From: a virus
Strand: one strand, 5' to 3'
DNA length: 40,159 nt
Virus record (IMG/VR): IMGVR_UViG_3300035670_013243
Span: 1-40,159 of that record
Shown here: positions 6,121-38,839 of the stretch, one piece after another
Position numbering within the stretch: the first letter of the stretch is position 1
Layout: each line of letters begins with the position of its first letter
Translations under genes and position numbers: made by a program
The notes under the pieces: model-generated
Seen by the model: only the letters and a program-made list of their open reading frames with translations
Database searches by the model: none
Told to the model about the DNA's origin: nothing

Positions 6121-6756
6121 TCACGTTAATGGACGGGGAAACTGGCCACGGGCTCTTTGTTCAGTTGGTGTACCAGAACCACCAGAACCAACACCAAGAG
6201 TAAATCTACGCACTTTTCCTGTAACCTTTTCATTTGGTGCAACACCGTCTACTCTTCCCAGACTGTCTACGTTTTGATGCACTTCGACGCTTGGATTGTC
6301 GAAAGGTTCGGGCACTGCGCCGTTGATGCTACTAGAAACAACTGCTAGGTTTGTTGGATTAATACCAGCTGCTTCGCCGGGAGATGCAATAGTTGGAGAA
6401 TATGGTGTTCCAAGACCTGTTCCAACACCAACAGTAACAGTACTTTTGTCTCTTACCGCAACATATTCAGGATCAAGACTTCCACCAGCAACGGCTTGTG
6501 GTTCAAAACTTCTACGATATTGTGGAAACATAGCGTTTTCGCCGTTATATGCTTCCATTTTTTCTTTTGCGACTCTTAGAAGCTCCCTCTGCCCGTCTAG
6601 CGTATTTCTGGGAGCACCTGCTGCACCGCTTGGGGTATCAAATGCATCGATTAGCCCGGCATCATTTCTTTTTCCAAGATATGTTGCGTTTAGACCAGTA
6701 CCAACATTCATCGACGCTGGTGGTGTTGTTGTTTCGTAATCGGTTCTTGTTGCCAT
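6121..6756 (-). CDS. Unknown virion-associated protein in the head operon
   Basis: This 211-residue protein is rich in Gly, Pro, Thr and Ser with little predicted helix apart from residues about 50-75 (NTLDGQRELLRVAKEKMEAY). No family is recognised. Composition and its place between protease and scaffold suggest an extended structural or core-bound protein. The start has AAGGAG, nine bases upstream, next to a stable 8-bp hairpin. T4 has small core proteins gp67 and gp68 in this part of the operon, but upstream of the protease, so equivalence is not claimed. Confidence 0.7.
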   Translation of the reverse strand: MATRTDYETTTPPASMNVGTGLNATYLGKRNDAGLIDAFDTPSGAAGAPRNTLDGQRELLRVAKEKMEAYNGENAMFPQYRRSFEPQAVAGGSLDPEYVAVRDKSTVTVGVGTGLGTPYSPTIASPGEAAGINPTNLAVVSSSINGAVPEPFDNPSVEVHQNVDSLGRVDGVAPNEKVTGKVRRFTLGVGSGGSGTPTEQRARGQFPRPLT

Positions 6757-24947: not shown

Positions 24948-24989
24948 ATACCTTTAGATATTCTTTTTAATATCCTATGATAAAGGTAT
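24948..24989 (+). promoter_or_regulatory. Two-tier hairpin burying the uvdE ribosome site and start codon
   Basis: ATACCTTTA (24948-24956) pairs with TAAAGGTAT (24981-24989), and inside it GATATT (24957-24962) pairs with AATATC (24969-24974). The AAAGG ribosome site and the first two bases of the ATG are all in the 3' arm. TATGATA in the internal loop could be the -10 of a promoter giving a shorter RNA free of the hairpin, as is known for T4 gene e. Confidence 0.6.
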
Positions 24990-28159: not shown

Positions 28160-29809
28160 ATGCCGCTAACAAAAAAAGAACAACTCGATGAAATAATGAA
28201 GTGTGGACAAGACCCGTGCTACTTCATTAAAAAATACCTTTACATCCAACACCCAGTAAAAGGTAGACTACCATTCGAACTATATCCCTTCCAAGAAGAA
28301 TGTATCCAAGGCTTCCTAGATTACAAATTCAATATCGTTCTTAAATCCCGACAGCTAGGATTGTCTACAACAACATCTGCTTACTGCCTTTGGATGGCTA
28401 TGTTTAGACAAGATGCCAACATCATGATCATGGCAACAAAGCTGGAAACCAGCAAAAACATGATTCAAAAAATCAGAACAACATTCAAAATGCTGCCAGC
28501 ATGGATGTTAAACTTGTTGGATTTAAAAGAACCAGAAGCAGAATCTGTCAAATATATCAAGTTTAACAATGGTTCAAAGATTGCTGCAATTCCAACATCT
28601 GCTGATGCAGGTCGTGGTGAAGCATTGTCGCTGCTTATTGTCGATGAAGCTGCACACGTTGATGTGCTAGAAGAACTATGGTTAGGTCTATACCCCACTC
28701 TGTCAACAGGTGGTAGAGCAATCATCTTCTCAACTCCTAATGGCAAAAACTTCTTCTACCAACTCTGGGCTGGAGCAGATACAGGAGATTATGAAGAAGG
28801 TAAGGTAGGATTACACTGCAAAGGTGTTGGTCCAAATAAGTTCCATGGTATTAAACTCCCTTGGTACGTACATCCAGAAAGAGATGAACAATGGTTCGAA
28901 GACCAAGCCAAACCAATGGATGCAAGAGGTATCGCACAAGAACTTCTGTGCGGCTTCGAAGGCTCCTCTTCAACCTTCTTTGACCAAAATACTATTGATT
29001 GGGTTAGAAATACTTCCCAAACTCCAATTGGCTTTACTGGCCCAAATAACAAAGGTCAAGATTTACATATCTGGAAAACTGCTATTCCCGATCACAAGTA
29101 TATCATTGCAGCAGACGTTGCAAGAGGCGATGCAGAAGATTACTCAACCTTTCATGTGTTCAATGTAAATGAAAGCGAAGTTGTTGCTGAATATATGGGC
29201 AAAATTCCTCCAGATAGATTCGGAGAATGGCTTATTGAAATTGGCAAAAGATACAACGATGCTCTTATTGTAAATGAAAAGAATACCGTTGGTATTGCCA
29301 CAGCTATTAAACTAAGAGATGCTGAGTATCCTAACTTGTATTATGACCAAGACCTTCAAGATAAAATGATTAGTATGACACCAGACGAAAAGAAAGATGT
29401 TTTGCCTGGGTTTACAATCAAACCAAATAACCGTGAAAAAATTCTTGAAAACTTAGAACAAGTTATCAGAAACCATCAACTAAAGATTTATTCATTACGC
29501 TTTGTATCACAAATGGAAACGTTTGTTTGGAACGGTAAACGTGGACAAGCATTAAAGAAACGTCATGACGACCTTATCATGGCAATGGCTATTGGCTTGC
29601 AAATCTTTACACCAATGGCTCATGAAAAAGGTTATCTTGGCTCATTAGAAGTTAACAAAACCATTTCAAATGCATTGCTTGCTGGAATGAGCCGAGGCTT
29701 TCGTGATGTAAAACAAAAAGTTAATGGCAAACCAGTTCCAGCAGGAGTCAATCCCGACAATATCAAAAACGAATTAGAGTTTCGCAAAGAGTTTTGGTGG
29801 CTGTATTAA
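28160..29809 (+). CDS. 17: Terminase large subunit, T4 gp17-like
   Basis: The 549-residue packaging motor has both domains. The ATPase has an adenine-motif-like YPFQEECI, Walker A variant KSRQLGLST (62-70), Walker B LLIVDEAAHVD (about 157-167) and coupling motif FSTPNG. The RNase-H-fold nuclease has IIAADVARGDAEDYS (about 314-328), ALIVNEKNTVG and the late acidic RHDDLIMAMAIG. T4 gp17 has 610 residues. It docks on the portal and fills the head with DNA. The gene is about 16 kb from the portal and on the other strand, unlike T4 where they are close. Confidence 0.97.
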   Translation: MPLTKKEQLDEIMKCGQDPCYFIKKYLYIQHPVKGRLPFELYPFQEECIQGFLDYKFNIVLKSRQLGLSTTTSAYCLWMAMFRQDANIMIMATKLETSKNMIQKIRTTFKMLPAWMLNLLDLKEPEAESVKYIKFNNGSKIAAIPTSADAGRGEALSLLIVDEAAHVDVLEELWLGLYPTLSTGGRAIIFSTPNGKNFFYQLWAGADTGDYEEGKVGLHCKGVGPNKFHGIKLPWYVHPERDEQWFEDQAKPMDARGIAQELLCGFEGSSSTFFDQNTIDWVRNTSQTPIGFTGPNNKGQDLHIWKTAIPDHKYIIAADVARGDAEDYSTFHVFNVNESEVVAEYMGKIPPDRFGEWLIEIGKRYNDALIVNEKNTVGIATAIKLRDAEYPNLYYDQDLQDKMISMTPDEKKDVLPGFTIKPNNREKILENLEQVIRNHQLKIYSLRFVSQMETFVWNGKRGQALKKRHDDLIMAMAIGLQIFTPMAHEKGYLGSLEVNKTISNALLAGMSRGFRDVKQKVNGKPVPAGVNPDNIKNELEFRKEFWWLY

Positions 29810-30646: not shown

Positions 30647-32317
30647 CTAAAGAACAGCTTTGATAGCTTCCAAACTTGCAAAAAACGCTTGGATTTCTTG
30701 ATTTGGACTATTAGCAAAAGCTTGAGCAAAAGCTTTATAACTATTAGAATCCTTTAAGGCAGTACCTCCAGCGGGCGCAGGCAAACTAGCTACGTTTTGA
30801 CTAATATCGCTAACTGCTTTAACGATATTTTCGGCAGGCGCATTGAATACCGCTCTATATTTTTCTATTTCACTCTGGAAACTTACTACTTTTTTACCGC
30901 TGCCATCAACAAGATTTCCGTCTGCATCCATTCCAACACCAATACCACCTGTTATTGCTGCAACATCTTGTTGTGGATTTCTACGAGGAGTATCATATGA
31001 AGAGCTATAGCCAGTATATGAGTCTTTAAAGAAATCTGCTAGTTTCGATGTTGCCCAAGCTATAGCTCCTGCTAATGCAGTAAGAAGTAATGCCGTAAGA
31101 ACAAACTCGTTTAATTGAATCTTGTTAACAACTTCTCCTGTTCTTGCATATTCCGACAAAACTTGTTTTTTTAAATACAACTTAGCAAGTTGTTGCTGTC
31201 TCGGTGTTAAAACAGATTCAGAAACTTGTTTTTGACCAATTTTCGTAAATGCGTCTTGTAAAGCAGAAGATTGTGTTAATATTTCTCCAAGAGCACCTTC
31301 TCCTTTATTTGCACCAATTATTGTAGAAATGGCTCCACCTATTTTGTCTATGGCAGGATTTGCTTGCTGTGGTGGTGTAGCTTGTGTTTGTGGTGTAGCT
31401 TGTGTTTGTGGTGTAGCTTGTGTTTGTGGTGTAGCTTGTGTTTGTGGTGTAGCTTGCTGTGGCAGTGGCCCTGCTGCTGCTGCTGCTTGCTTTGCCTGAT
31501 TTAAATCGTTGGCAGAAAAGTTTCTAGGTAATTGAATGCTTCTAATTTGCTTCAGATAATTTTTAAGTTCTTCTACCGTATTGATTGGAACGTTATTTGT
31601 TTGCGCTTGTCTTAAAGCGGCAATAGCACCTTGCATAACTTTTCCTTTTATTTGTTGTTCCAACAAAGATATTTTTGTTTGAGCTAAAGAAGCAAGATAT
31701 TCTGAGCGTTCAATCAATCCAACTTCATATAGCTTTTTATTCATCTTGAATCTATCAATGATTGATGACTCTGCTATTGCTTCTTTTGGCTGTGTTGTTC
31801 CTGCTGCTGGTGCTGCTTGTTGTGGTTCTTGGGTTTTTGGTATTTTAGGATTAATTTTATTGAACTCTTCTGCAAAATCAGCAGAAGTTTTAGCAAGACC
31901 GTTTGTATCATTTGAGATTCTGTCTGTCATTGCTTTTGCAGCTAAAGCAGATGCGTCAATGGCTTGTTTTAGTTTACCTTGAGAAACAGTGGCTGCTTGT
32001 TCAAGATCACTAAATGCATTGTCCTCTGACAAAGCATCAAATATTAATTTTGCTTCATTGGTGGCTTTTCCATCCCAGGGCTTTAAAAAAACTTTCAGAA
32101 ACCAAGCTTGATTTGAACCGTTTGCACTCAAATTTTGAATTACACTAGCAATCTCATTGATTTTTTCACTTTTTATTTTATCTTCTTTGCCGCTAAAAAG
32201 CTTCTTAAACCATTTTGATTCTTGTTTTTTTCTCAAATGTTTAGTTGACCATTCTTTCAAAGCAATGATTGGAACACGCTGATCGTTTTCTGGGTTTAAT
32301 GTAAGTTTGATTGCCAT
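30647..32317 (-). CDS. Putative virion protein with repeat linker and one membrane segment
   Basis: I start at ATG 32317 (AAAGG nine bases upstream); the frame extends to a TTG three codons earlier. The 556-residue protein has a charged helical N-terminal half, an Ala/Gln/Thr/Pro linker with ATPQTQ repeats, and a hydrophobic helix (FVLTALLLTALAGAIAWATSKLADFF) likely to cross or enter a membrane. Its C-terminal part is rich in Ala, Ser and Asn. No enzyme motif is seen. The layout resembles injected internal proteins or tail-associated membrane proteins. It converges with the RadA-like gene and is divergent from the sigma operon. Confidence 0.7.
   Translation of the reverse strand: MAIKLTLNPENDQRVPIIALKEWSTKHLRKKQESKWFKKLFSGKEDKIKSEKINEIASVIQNLSANGSNQAWFLKVFLKPWDGKATNEAKLIFDALSEDNAFSDLEQAATVSQGKLKQAIDASALAAKAMTDRISNDTNGLAKTSADFAEEFNKINPKIPKTQEPQQAAPAAGTTQPKEAIAESSIIDRFKMNKKLYEVGLIERSEYLASLAQTKISLLEQQIKGKVMQGAIAALRQAQTNNVPINTVEELKNYLKQIRSIQLPRNFSANDLNQAKQAAAAAGPLPQQATPQTQATPQTQATPQTQATPQTQATPPQQANPAIDKIGGAISTIIGANKGEGALGEILTQSSALQDAFTKIGQKQVSESVLTPRQQQLAKLYLKKQVLSEYARTGEVVNKIQLNEFVLTALLLTALAGAIAWATSKLADFFKDSYTGYSSSYDTPRRNPQQDVAAITGGIGVGMDADGNLVDGSGKKVVSFQSEIEKYRAVFNAPAENIVKAVSDISQNVASLPAPAGGTALKDSNSYKAFAQAFANSPNQEIQAFFASLEAIKAVL
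31374..31451 (-). repeat. 18-bp perfect tandem repeat in coding sequence
   Basis: GGTGTAGCTTGTGTTTGT is repeated four times without change plus a partial fifth copy, encoding (ATPQTQ)n on the minus strand. The lack of any silent changes points to recent expansion. Confidence 0.92.
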
Positions 32318-32407
32318 TAGCCACAACCTTTGATATTACCCTAAATAGTCTAGGATTAAATACTTGCTTTTGAGAATATGATGTGTTAGTTTGGTAGTAT
32401 GATAGGT

Positions 32408-32839
32408 ATGAGTGACACTAACTGGCTAACACACTTGAATAATCTTGTTGCATATTCAAATTATCATGGTGTTTATGTTGAGTTTAAACGTGGTTGTGAA
32501 GATTCTTACACCGCTGACGTTCAAAAAATTACAATCAATAGCCAACGTACACTAAAAAATCAAACGTATATTTTGCTGCACGAACTTGGTCATCACAATA
32601 TACTGAAAGATGGAATGCTTTGCAAAAAGTTTGCTGTGCTCAATCAAGAAAATGTTGCACGTAACCTTTCCAATCGTATCCTAAGCTTAGAAGAAGAAGT
32701 TATCGCTTGGCATATTGGAGAAGGTATCGGTCGCTCATTAAGCATTCCTTTGGATGCTAGCTTCCAAATTTTAAAGTCTCGCTGCCTTAAAACCTACGTT
32801 GATTCAATCGCATCAAAAAAAGTAAGGAACAACCAATGA
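32408..32839 (+). CDS. ImmA/IrrE-like zinc metallopeptidase
   Basis: The 143-residue protein (start at ATG 32408; an ATG three codons earlier is possible) has H58-E-L-G-H62 in ILLHELGHHNIL and a Glu cluster in LSLEEEVIAWHIGEGIG (95-101), the likely third zinc ligand. This layout is typical of the ImmA/IrrE minimal peptidases, which cut transcription regulators in phages, conjugative elements and Deinococcus. It overlaps the sigma gene by 4 nt, so the two are made together. Substrate unknown. A regulator of phage or host transcription is the natural guess. Confidence 0.82.
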   Translation: MSDTNWLTHLNNLVAYSNYHGVYVEFKRGCEDSYTADVQKITINSQRTLKNQTYILLHELGHHNILKDGMLCKKFAVLNQENVARNLSNRILSLEEEVIAWHIGEGIGRSLSIPLDASFQILKSRCLKTYVDSIASKKVRNNQ

Positions 32840-33570
32840 CACTAAAAACAAGCACAAACGAAGAAGATATTGAACTGTTCAAGAAATATCAAACAACAAA
32901 AGTATTGGATGAAAATGGCAAGCTATTGAAGGCAGACATAAAGCTACGGAATGATTTAGCTCAACGTAATGCCAAGCTTGTCACATTTGTAATCAACAAG
33001 TTTTACTCCAAAAAGCAAAAGCACAAGGAACTACGAAGTGATTTACTTCAAGAAGGTCATCTTGGTTTGTTTGATGCTATTGATGGATTCAAGCCAGAGC
33101 TAGGATTTAAGTTTTCTACATATGCTACATGGTGGATTCGTCAAAGCGTAAACTCTTATCTTCTAGATCAAGAGCCAATGCTTCATATTCCCAGTCATAT
33201 TCGTACTGCACGAAATAAACTGTTTAATCTTGCCAAAGAACGTTCAACAGCATTCAAGGATATCAGCAAAGATATGCTTGAAGAGCTTGGCATGACAGAA
33301 AAGATGTTTGCGTCTGTGACAGCAGCAATTAAAACTAAGTCATGGAATGTTCAGTCAATTGACGAACCATTGAGTTCAAGTATGGATAAAACGTTGAGAG
33401 ACGTTATTCCAAGCGTTGAAGCTGATATGTTGGTTGGTGTTGACAACAAGCGTATTCTACTAGCGGCAAAAGAAGCTTTTATGAAGCTTAATTTGCGAGA
33501 GAAGTGTGTGTTGTTGGAGCGTTATGGAGTTGATTGCAGCAAAATTGTAGCAAAGGAGAATGCGAAATGA
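32836..33570 (+). CDS. Phage sigma-70-family factor lacking a full region 4
   Basis: The 244-residue protein has a strong region 2 (SDLLQEGHLGLFDAIDGFKPELGFKFSTYATWWIRQSVNSYL, about 68-109), including the -10-binding and core-binding parts. A region 3-like part follows (HIPSHIRTARNKLF...DISKDMLEELGMTEKMF) and the start of region 4 (AFMKLNLREKCVLLERYGV). The sequence then stops before the -35-binding helix-turn-helix. T4 late sigma gp55 likewise lacks a normal region 4. It probably directs RNA polymerase to late promoters that have only a -10-like element. ATGA overlaps couple it to the genes on both sides. Confidence 0.92.
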   Translation: MTLKTSTNEEDIELFKKYQTTKVLDENGKLLKADIKLRNDLAQRNAKLVTFVINKFYSKKQKHKELRSDLLQEGHLGLFDAIDGFKPELGFKFSTYATWWIRQSVNSYLLDQEPMLHIPSHIRTARNKLFNLAKERSTAFKDISKDMLEELGMTEKMFASVTAAIKTKSWNVQSIDEPLSSSMDKTLRDVIPSVEADMLVGVDNKRILLAAKEAFMKLNLREKCVLLERYGVDCSKIVAKENAK

Positions 33571-33848
33571 ATCAGAAGTATATAACTATCGAAGAGGGTG
33601 AAGACTATCGCACCATAGCAACCAAGATGACAGCATTAGGATATAAGATGAATCATGCAACTGCAAGAAACATTCTTTTGTCTGGAATGCGTAAATTCAT
33701 GTTGAATATGTCAGAATCTCTTGGTAGACCTCTTACAGACGAAGAATGTAGTATGTTAGTAATGAGACAAGACATTCATGAAGTACTGGGAGATATTCTT
33801 CCCCTCTGTTTATCAGAGGAAACACAACAATGCCCGGTGGCAAAATAA
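33567..33848 (+). CDS. Small HTH protein resembling a separate sigma region 4 (possible gp33-like partner)
   Basis: I start at ATG 33567 (AAGGAG nine bases upstream, ATGA overlap with the sigma stop), giving 93 residues. The segment EDYRTIATKMTALGYKMNHATARNILLSGMRKFM has the arrangement of a sigma-4.2 helix-turn-helix (an iA..mg...ARn...ALrKl pattern). Since the upstream sigma ends just before this element, the two look like a sigma factor split into two coupled chains. T4 uses gp55 plus gp33, the latter replacing region 4 on the polymerase flap. Function is inferred from motif and context. Confidence 0.75.
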   Translation: MNQKYITIEEGEDYRTIATKMTALGYKMNHATARNILLSGMRKFMLNMSESLGRPLTDEECSMLVMRQDIHEVLGDILPLCLSEETQQCPVAK

Positions 33849-34264
33849 CCGCAAAACAAGAATTGCCTGATTTACAAAGTTATCTCGCTCGCAAACGTTA
33901 TCCGTTAGATAAATGGCTTGTAGCAAATAACATTACCTCCACAGAAGCCCTTAATAGCCTTATTAGCTCCAACAAATGGATTGTTAGTCCAGAACTACAT
34001 CATTTGATTTCCGAGCTGTTAAAACCCATTTATATACCTCCTGCACCAATTGTTGAAGCTGTTGTTTCAGCTCCAGTAGTTGTTGAGCCTATTGAAACGG
34101 TTTTAAAGGAAGAAACTGTGGTAGAACAAGTTGTTGAACAACAAACAAACCTCGCAACCGAGGAACAAGTTGTTTCATCAGAACCAGAGGAGAATATTCA
34201 AATAGTTGAAGAATCTTCTATGGTGCCATATCAATCATTCAAAGAAAGGAAAAAGTCTAGATAA
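33830..34264 (+). CDS. Unknown acidic protein downstream of the sigma pair
   Basis: The 144-residue protein has a small N-terminal helical domain (LPDLQSYLARKRYPLDKWLVANNITSTEALNSLI) and a long disordered Val/Glu/Pro tail ending in a basic KERKKSR. It overlaps the upstream gene by 19 nt with GAGG as ribosome site. No family is recognised. It might be a polymerase- or clamp-binding accessory protein, given its operon. Confidence 0.7.
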   Translation: MPGGKITAKQELPDLQSYLARKRYPLDKWLVANNITSTEALNSLISSNKWIVSPELHHLISELLKPIYIPPAPIVEAVVSAPVVVEPIETVLKEETVVEQVVEQQTNLATEEQVVSSEPEENIQIVEESSMVPYQSFKERKKSR

Positions 34265-34520: not shown

Positions 34521-34543
34521 AAAAAATGAAAGGTAGAAACATC

Positions 34544-34828
34544 ATGTCATACGAAACAACCAACTCATCATTCACCTCACTTGCTCGTATCGGTTCCGGC
34601 TCAAACCCACGCAACACTCTTCGCTTCACTCCAACCAACTCAACGGATATTGGTGTAAGCGTAGAACAACCAGCAAGCAAGAAGGCTATGACAATGGAAG
34701 TAATCGTACCAATCTCACGGTCAAAGGTTCGTTCTCGTCGCACTGCTCGCTTCACACTCAATGGTGTTCAAGCTCGCAAGCTCTACGAAACACTTAGTAA
34801 GTTCTACGCTGAACGTGATCAAGGCTGA
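34544..34828 (+). CDS. Small basic protein, probably highly expressed, own transcription unit
   Basis: The 94-residue product starts at ATG 34544, with AAAGG ten bases upstream. It is Ser/Thr-rich with a basic beta-type centre (MTMEVIVPISRSKVRSRRTARFTLNG) and a C-terminal helix (VQARKLYETLSKFYAE). Codon choice (CGT, CTC, AAC, GGT and ATC more often than in neighbours) suggests heavy expression. A 5' hairpin and a strong terminator bracket it as a one-gene unit. A DNA- or RNA-binding role fits the charge but is not shown. Confidence 0.75.
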   Translation: MSYETTNSSFTSLARIGSGSNPRNTLRFTPTNSTDIGVSVEQPASKKAMTMEVIVPISRSKVRSRRTARFTLNGVQARKLYETLSKFYAERDQG

Positions 34829-35571: not shown

Positions 35572-35748
35572 TCATTCTTCGTCAAATCCCTCGTCCTCTT
35601 CAGATTCCAATTCTGTACGTACACGATCCACAATCGATATCACATCATCAACAGTTGACATTTCATCAGCTTCCAAAAGAGTTTTGTATTCATCCATAAA
35701 CTCTTCCAATCTATCAATCAATCTAGAAAGCACTCTCACACTTGACAT
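35572..35748 (-). CDS. Small acidic helical protein
   Basis: A 58-residue frame, MSSVRVLSRLIDRLEEFMDE and onwards, ends EDEGFDEE. It is an acidic helix pair. The stop abuts the stop of the plus-strand 218-residue gene with no gap. The start overlaps the upstream 111-residue minus gene by 13 bp, with GAGGA upstream. Strong codon periodicity and packing support it although it is short. Function unknown. Confidence 0.7.
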   Translation of the reverse strand: MSSVRVLSRLIDRLEEFMDEYKTLLEADEMSTVDDVISIVDRVRTELESEEDEGFDEE

Positions 35749-36071
35749 AATTTCTTGTTATCCTCTTCAATAATTTCAAACTGTTTTTTGCTGCCAATAA
35801 TCCATCCGAACATATCACTATATAAGCACTTGTAATAAAAACTACCATGCTCGTCTTGCATTTTGTTTAACAACACAAAACTTTCATTTGTTGGTTTAAG
35901 AGTTGTAGATGGCTGTGGAAGCTTGCCTAAAGCACTTGTTAGAATACTGGGAAGCCAGCTATTCTTCTTGTTTCTTTCTTCTAACACAAGATTTAAATCT
36001 GAATATACCACAACAAATGATTGCAATGCATTCTTTTTACTTTTGATATGACATAAAGAACCAATACGCAT
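35736..36071 (-). CDS. Unknown small protein
   Basis: The 111-residue protein has a beta-rich start (RIGSLCHIKSKKNALQSFVVVYSDLNLVLEE), a Pro/Ser linker, and a second beta part (FVLLNKMQDEHGSFYYKCLYSDMFGWIIG). This could be two small SH3-like barrels. It is coupled to the 58-residue gene downstream and divergent from the KTSC gene. No family is recognised. Confidence 0.68.
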   Translation of the reverse strand: MRIGSLCHIKSKKNALQSFVVVYSDLNLVLEERNKKNSWLPSILTSALGKLPQPSTTLKPTNESFVLLNKMQDEHGSFYYKCLYSDMFGWIIGSKKQFEIIEEDNKKLCQV

Positions 36072-38764: not shown

Positions 38765-38839
38765 GCCCTTATACCGGCTCTGTCTTCTAAACAGTAGTAC
38801 CGTAATCGGATTATGCAGGTTCGAATCCTGCTGAGGGCG
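38765..38839 (+). tRNA. tRNA-Arg(UCU)-like element with missing D arm (pseudo-tRNA or unusual tRNA)
   Basis: Acceptor GCCCTTA (38765-38771) pairs with TGAGGGC (38832-38838). The T arm GCAGG-TTCGAAT-CCTGC is perfect. An anticodon arm CTGT-CTTCTAA-ACAG gives anticodon TCT (38786-38788). Only 8 bases stand where the D arm should be, and about 20 bases (with TAATCGGATTA, which looks like a D loop) fill the variable region. The order suggests rearrangement or decay of a normal tRNA-Arg. It could still fold with a compensating variable arm. Confidence 0.55.

Follow-up and report, generated by a model that had tools for sequence, protein, structure and literature searches.

The window analysed here, that is the whole stretch of DNA under study, is a 40,159-base piece of an uncultured virus record, in which a phage terminase large subunit is encoded at 28160-29809. 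Three genes follow one another in series on its plus strand between 32399 and 33848, coding for an ImmA/IrrE-like peptidase, a sigma factor and a small helix-turn-helix (HTH) protein, and at both junctions stop and start codons overlap in ATGA (Table 1). This coupled layout, with the HELGH motif of the peptidase, the truncated sigma and the HTH protein, had been noticed in a preliminary description and was confirmed in all of its parts. The peptidase-sigma ATGA is likewise present in L002-L005, L009 and L101, the sigma-HTH overlap of -4 in L002-L009 and L013-L015, and a counterpart of the ORF that follows the HTH gene lies downstream in L002-L009, L097 and L169. Since the truncation point is kept in relatives and the MNH core of the HTH partner is invariant, the layout is not a product of chance. 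As to the start of the peptidase, relatives begin at a position aligned with the ATG at 32399, so that 32408 is regarded as an alternative in-frame start (143 aa). The probable operon promoter is situated about 9 nt before this ATG, in a near-leaderless arrangement; eight close relatives were aligned, most of which keep it.

Table 1. Features of the peptidase-sigma-HTH locus, with positions in the window.
Feature	Position	Strand	Basis
Probable operon promoter, AAATACTTGC ... TGTTAG	32358..32389	+	Conserved upstream of the peptidase gene; inferred
ImmA/IrrE-like (M78-type) zinc metalloprotease, 146 aa	32399..32839	+	phrog_87, motif conservation
ATGA stop/start overlap, peptidase-sigma	32836..32839	+	Sequence
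Sigma-70 family protein, 244 aa, no region 4.2	32836..33570	+	Profiles; truncation conserved
Sigma region 2, residues 42-112, including FSTYATWWIRQ	32959..33171	+	Pfam PF04542
Region 4.1-like sigma end (LREKCVLLERYGV...)	33493..33567	+	NCBIfam alignments to residue 234-235, then none
ATGA stop/start overlap, sigma-HTH	33567..33570	+	Sequence
HTH partner protein, 93 aa	33567..33848	+	Family A3, AF2 model
Predicted helix-turn-helix, residues 14-51	33606..33719	+	Model secondary structure, conservation
MNHATARN in the predicted helix-turn-helix	33648-33671	+	Conservation
Next ORF of the operon, 144 aa, unknown function	33830..34264	+	19-nt overlap with the HTH gene

Region 2 of the sigma was recognised by the Sigma70_r2 profile with E 4.6e-12 (46 bits vs a curated cut-off of 24), and the protein as a whole matched phrog_351 (E 6.7e-40) and RpoD_Cterm (E 5.6e-29, model positions 2-194 of 238). 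Alignments to the RpoD, RpoS and SigBFG models reach only the start of region 4.2; the C-terminus of the chain, LREKCVLLERYGVDCSKIVAKENAK, lies just past region 4.1, and the helix-turn-helix of region 4.2 is missing from the sigma chain in the window as well as in its relatives. The earlier observation of a sigma with a strong region 2 that is cut before the -35 helix-turn-helix is therefore borne out by the Pfam and NCBIfam alignments. Close relatives of this sigma (73-89%) and distant ones (about 30-44%) share the same endpoint, after which a member of the HTH family is encoded. The canonical 4.2 motif was found in none of the 107 sigma rows having an HTH partner (rows include repeated loci) and in 64 of 72 partnerless rows (repeats included), the others being full-length with a diverged 4.2; the HTH partner was not found with any full-length sigma examined, and annotated phages with related sigmas have 4.2 in the same chain and no HTH protein. 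Regions 2, 3 and 4.1 of the window sigma thus align with those of full-length RpoD-like sigmas of phages and hosts, with which it shares phrog_351, whereas in these 4.2 stays in-chain and no gene for an HTH partner lies close by.

The AF2 model of the HTH protein (mean pLDDT 79.5) contains helices at residues 14-23 and 30-51 and two further ones. Throughout family A3 (51 sequences) T7, M21, G25, M28, N29, H30, R34 and N35 are invariant, and a core of MNH[AS][TS]ARN is nearly invariant across the HTH family. Searches with the family against Pfam (51 members) and PHROG matched no named family, a profile search against PDB sequences and a Foldseek search of the model against the PDB were both without match, and the best BFVD match was an unnamed protein of an uncultured phage; where cultured relatives were sought, the protein occurred in none of the phage records searched. 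When the family was compared with sigma region 4 by hhalign, 82 of 100 column shuffles reached the observed score, and the comparison with T4 gp33 returned a probability of 0.2. The preliminary description had called the protein sigma-4-like, a homology for which none of the searches by Pfam, PHROG, PDB, hhalign and Foldseek gave a match, and had proposed a profile search against gp33, which yielded nothing by hhalign; in addition, gp33 (phrog_254, PF16805) was unmatched in 8 phages searched, the T4 control being detected by the same search. It had also named the lack of a region 4 fold as telling against its reading; such a fold was indeed not found, which leaves the proposal that the protein acts in place of region 4 unaffected. 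As there is no detectable homology to region 4, our claim is limited to the protein occupying the place of region 4.2 and does not extend to descent. Most likely, it represents a 4.2 that has diverged strongly, or else 4.2 was replaced by an unrelated HTH.

Linkage of the two genes was assessed by searching for the HTH family, which gave 224 viral places, 80 of them read, and three genome contigs. Counted once by contig name and with the window included, 90 contigs were available, in 88 of which the HTH gene shares the strand of a truncated sigma and lies downstream of it, at distances from an overlap to about 1 kb. An HTH gene without sigma in a contig of 38.6 kb (L149, a fragment) counts as evidence against a two-chain reading. 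Each of the 14 large records contains a single HTH copy. Sigma and HTH form one ORF of 357 aa in L170, a contig assigned to a Flavobacteriales genome bin, the HTH directly following 4.1, exactly where region 4.2 belongs, in this one case only. The model of this fused protein, built on alignment A5 (the earlier A4 had sigma C-termini on the HTH), gives matches of about 270-350 columns to the sigma factors in solved holoenzyme structures; as its pTM is 0.42, it does not establish how the HTH is seated.

Overlap of the two frames and the existence of a fused ORF in L170 might also suggest that programmed frameshifting joins both ORFs into one sigma. However, whole genes lie between the halves in L010-L012, L016, L017 and the L110-L168 clade, the spacing of sigma and HTH is variable, and a slippery heptamer was not seen by eye at the junction; a fusion by frameshifting, to which we attach practically no weight, is rejected on account of these intervening genes. 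A sequencing frameshift is excluded for the same reason, and because the arrangement is repeated in independent contigs.

Between sigma and HTH, L022 and L111-L168 (e.g. L114, L116, L124, L153) encode a protein of 66-95 aa for which a single membrane helix is predicted at the N-terminus and whose C-terminal part is conserved, with a stretch resembling DLNxRLxxLQxxxFS. Its gene usually overlaps the sigma gene by 4 nt, and a strongly hydrophobic segment was detected in 24 of the 36 loci examined. The protein could anchor or inhibit the sigma. A different insertion was observed in L011 and L012, where a GIY-YIG homing endonuclease-like gene (by eye) separates the sigma and HTH genes.

In a tree of the sigma core, a branch (100/95) separates all split sigmas, which form three deep groups, from the other sigmas; long-branch rows were excluded from it, and an earlier tree with those rows broke up the split group. 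The topology indicates that the split arose once and was maintained in at least three deep lineages of phages. At the level of sequence, near-perfect linkage, complementary truncation, natural fusion and single origin uphold the idea that sigma and HTH protein are one functional unit. We consider it probable that together they constitute a two-chain (split) sigma factor. The first chain, with regions 2, 3 and 4.1, would bind the host core RNA polymerase and recognise and melt the -10 region, and the second, made alongside by coupled translation, would occupy the place of region 4.2, docking on the beta flap beside the 4.1 stub and touching upstream DNA. Binding to RNA polymerase, joint action and timing are what we infer from the arrangement. 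Domain 4 of sigma factors bridges the polymerase flap and the -35 element, and activators and anti-sigmas usually act on it. With a separate domain 4, the presence, amount or removal of the small subunit might switch the promoter class or the need for a -35 element.

Promoter sequences were considered with regard to what the HTH might read. A strong two-box class, AATAcCTTTAGAtA - 17 bp - TATTCTA, was the top result of an unbiased dyad search and is present at 24951, 34451 and 23702 (+) of the window and in G001 and G002, many of its sites lying only about 5 nt before ATG and thus being apparently leaderless. Two-box promoters with a spacing of about 17 bp occur in most phages examined (including G003, G005, G006, G007 and G009), and leaderless mRNAs are suggested in G006 by a GGTA box that precedes CATG by about 9 nt. 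The -35 boxes vary among phages (TTTAGA, TTGAC, GTGAA, TGTA) while the HTH core is nearly constant, so that a -35-reading role of the HTH is not supported; nor do the two-box promoters settle what the HTH reads, since the host sigma may read them. This failure of the MNH[AS][TS]ARN core to track the boxes would fit an HTH protein that is a regulator of sigma, either an anti-sigma or a co-activator such as gp33 or AsiA, acting on a -10-only (extended -10) sigma without 4.2. Such a reading, which we regard as unlikely, also accommodates the lack of homology to region 4 and the presence here of gp55-type-bearing phages without detectable gp33, and it has a precedent in T4 gp33, which with a fold unrelated to sigma region 4 takes the sigma-4 site (PMC7892883). 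Nevertheless, the fusion in L170 puts the HTH precisely at the 4.2 position, the strict one-to-one linkage with truncation fits a missing domain better than a regulator, and a co-activator that replaces domain 4 nearly equals a two-chain sigma anyway. A T4-like late box, TATAAATA or TATAGTTA, was sought as well and rejected, as genome-wide it was not in excess of shuffles. Individual TATAGTTA boxes were observed 34-59 nt before starts at 6121-6756 (-) and 35736-36071 (-) of the window and at the orthologues in G001 and G002; the box is a possible late-type promoter, but not in excess genome-wide.

The peptidase carries HELGHH and matches the PHROG metallo-protease family phrog_87 (E 4.9e-8). 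The window protein stays under the curated cut-off of the M78 profile (14 bits vs 22, E 0.043), weak matches to which were obtained in 8 of 13 peptidase relatives (best 1.9e-4), and the nearest solved structure is IrrE (E 0.06-0.08). The HExxH zinc motif (H61, E62, H65) and the downstream E99 and E100 are invariant in these 13 relatives, as are A103 and W104 of the EExxAW stretch. Directly upstream of sigma, the peptidase gene was found in 18 of the 90 contigs, the fused L170 among them; in the remaining contigs it is absent or elsewhere, about 3 kb off in G006 and far off in G007. Because of this limited adjacency the peptidase is considered accessory, and its supposed part as a built-in controller is not sustained, although catalytic residues are kept in the clade that has it. 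In the clade of the window, sigma may be under protease control.

These data also bear on the possibility that sigma and HTH are the equivalents of gp55 and gp33 in a T4-like late pair, activated via proteolysis by the co-translated peptidase. Adjacency in the 18 contigs with conserved catalytic residues, ATGA coupling of peptidase and sigma in several, and G005, G010 and G011, in which no gp55-type sigma was seen (records may be incomplete), would be in accordance with it. Yet a separate gp55-type sigma is encoded in G001, G003, G004, G006, G007, G008 and G009, the HTH has no homology to gp33, and the peptidase is missing near sigma in most split-sigma phages, so that we hold a late pair of this kind to be quite improbable. 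T4 gp55 belongs to phrog_234 and T4 gp33 to phrog_254, and the sigma of the window is matched by phrog_351 and not by phrog_234. A separate gp55-type sigma of its own is present in the 260-kb contig carrying the nearest relative, as in at least six other large phages; the split sigma is hence not the only phage sigma there and probably not the late one. As no gp55-type protein was observed in the marine-type records G005, G010 and G011, the sole phage sigma there could be the split one. What was initially described as a two-chain late sigma under peptidase control is accordingly retained as a sigma/HTH unit; the homology to region 4 or gp33 and the peptidase as built-in controller are not supported, and the term 'late' is doubtful, as several of these phages carry the separate gp55-type sigma. 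It was also observed that the gp55-type sigma adjoins a glycosyltransferase-like gene (G001:67810-68658, also G003, G006, G007 and G009) and that in these five phages it has a conserved C-terminal part, LSPKQLxxxMxxxKKHYR.

A more comprehensive scenario for the two-chain sigma is put forward tentatively, at somewhat less than an even chance: in the forebear of several large-phage lineages, a single event cut an RpoD-like sigma inside domain 4, and a small non-homologous HTH acting in trans took over from its -35 domain. A detachable domain 4 would then determine which promoters are chosen, and clade-specific regulators, namely the metalloprotease in one clade and the small membrane protein in another, would act on the split point.

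The idea of a two-chain sigma is itself already known from T4 gp55/gp33 and from SigO-RsoA, and in the literature on phage split sigmas only a remark on T4 and SigO-RsoA were found. In SPO1, which belongs to a different phage group, late transcription requires the proteins gp33 and gp34, of which one is sigma-like; they are likened to the present pair by description, not by sequence. T4 gp55 and gp33 have been called 'a split sigma' (PMC2988020), and as in the phages studied here a phage sigma without a full domain 4 is accompanied by a small separate protein, which in T4 occupies the site of domain 4 on the beta flap. Unlike gp55, the first chain is here RpoD-like and reaches into region 4; furthermore, the sigma and HTH genes lie side by side and are coupled, no relation of the small protein to gp33 could be detected, and several phages possess a gp55-type sigma besides. 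In Bacillus subtilis SigO-RsoA, the sigma regions are divided between chains of roughly 22 kDa and roughly 9 kDa (PMC10141391), a two-chain division to which ours is likened by description, not by sequence; SigO-RsoA is cellular, whereas the present split sigma occurs in large phages and involves an HTH family of its own. The title of a work cited on SigO-RsoA speaks of membrane-protein control, which recalls the small predicted membrane protein between the genes in one phage clade, a likeness that is only suggestive. A jumbo phage review (PMC7824862), where it deals with gp33 and with sigma factors of the minimal and the complete type, does not describe an RpoD-like sigma cut in domain 4 with a linked HTH, and such a sigma, cut inside domain 4 and paired with a linked HTH subunit, appears to be undescribed.

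A domain 4 that is a separate subunit, stable in many large phages, would offer a clean way to probe domain 4 alone. That several phages carry the split sigma together with a gp55-type sigma suggests a stepwise re-programming of the host RNA polymerase. The HTH family is unnamed in the family libraries searched, and, being without solved relatives and without a cultured member in the phage collection searched, it presents a defined target.

Three minor features of the window may be added. At 34526-34828 (+) a 100-aa protein of unknown function is encoded, which also occurs close to the sigma of L010 and at the L170 fusion locus. A tandem ATPQTQ repeat extends over 31329-31499 within the large minus-strand ORF 30647-32326, its plus-strand reading consisting of GVACVC repeats, and a tRNA gene is located at 38765-38839 (+) (Rfam RF00005, 37.2 bits).
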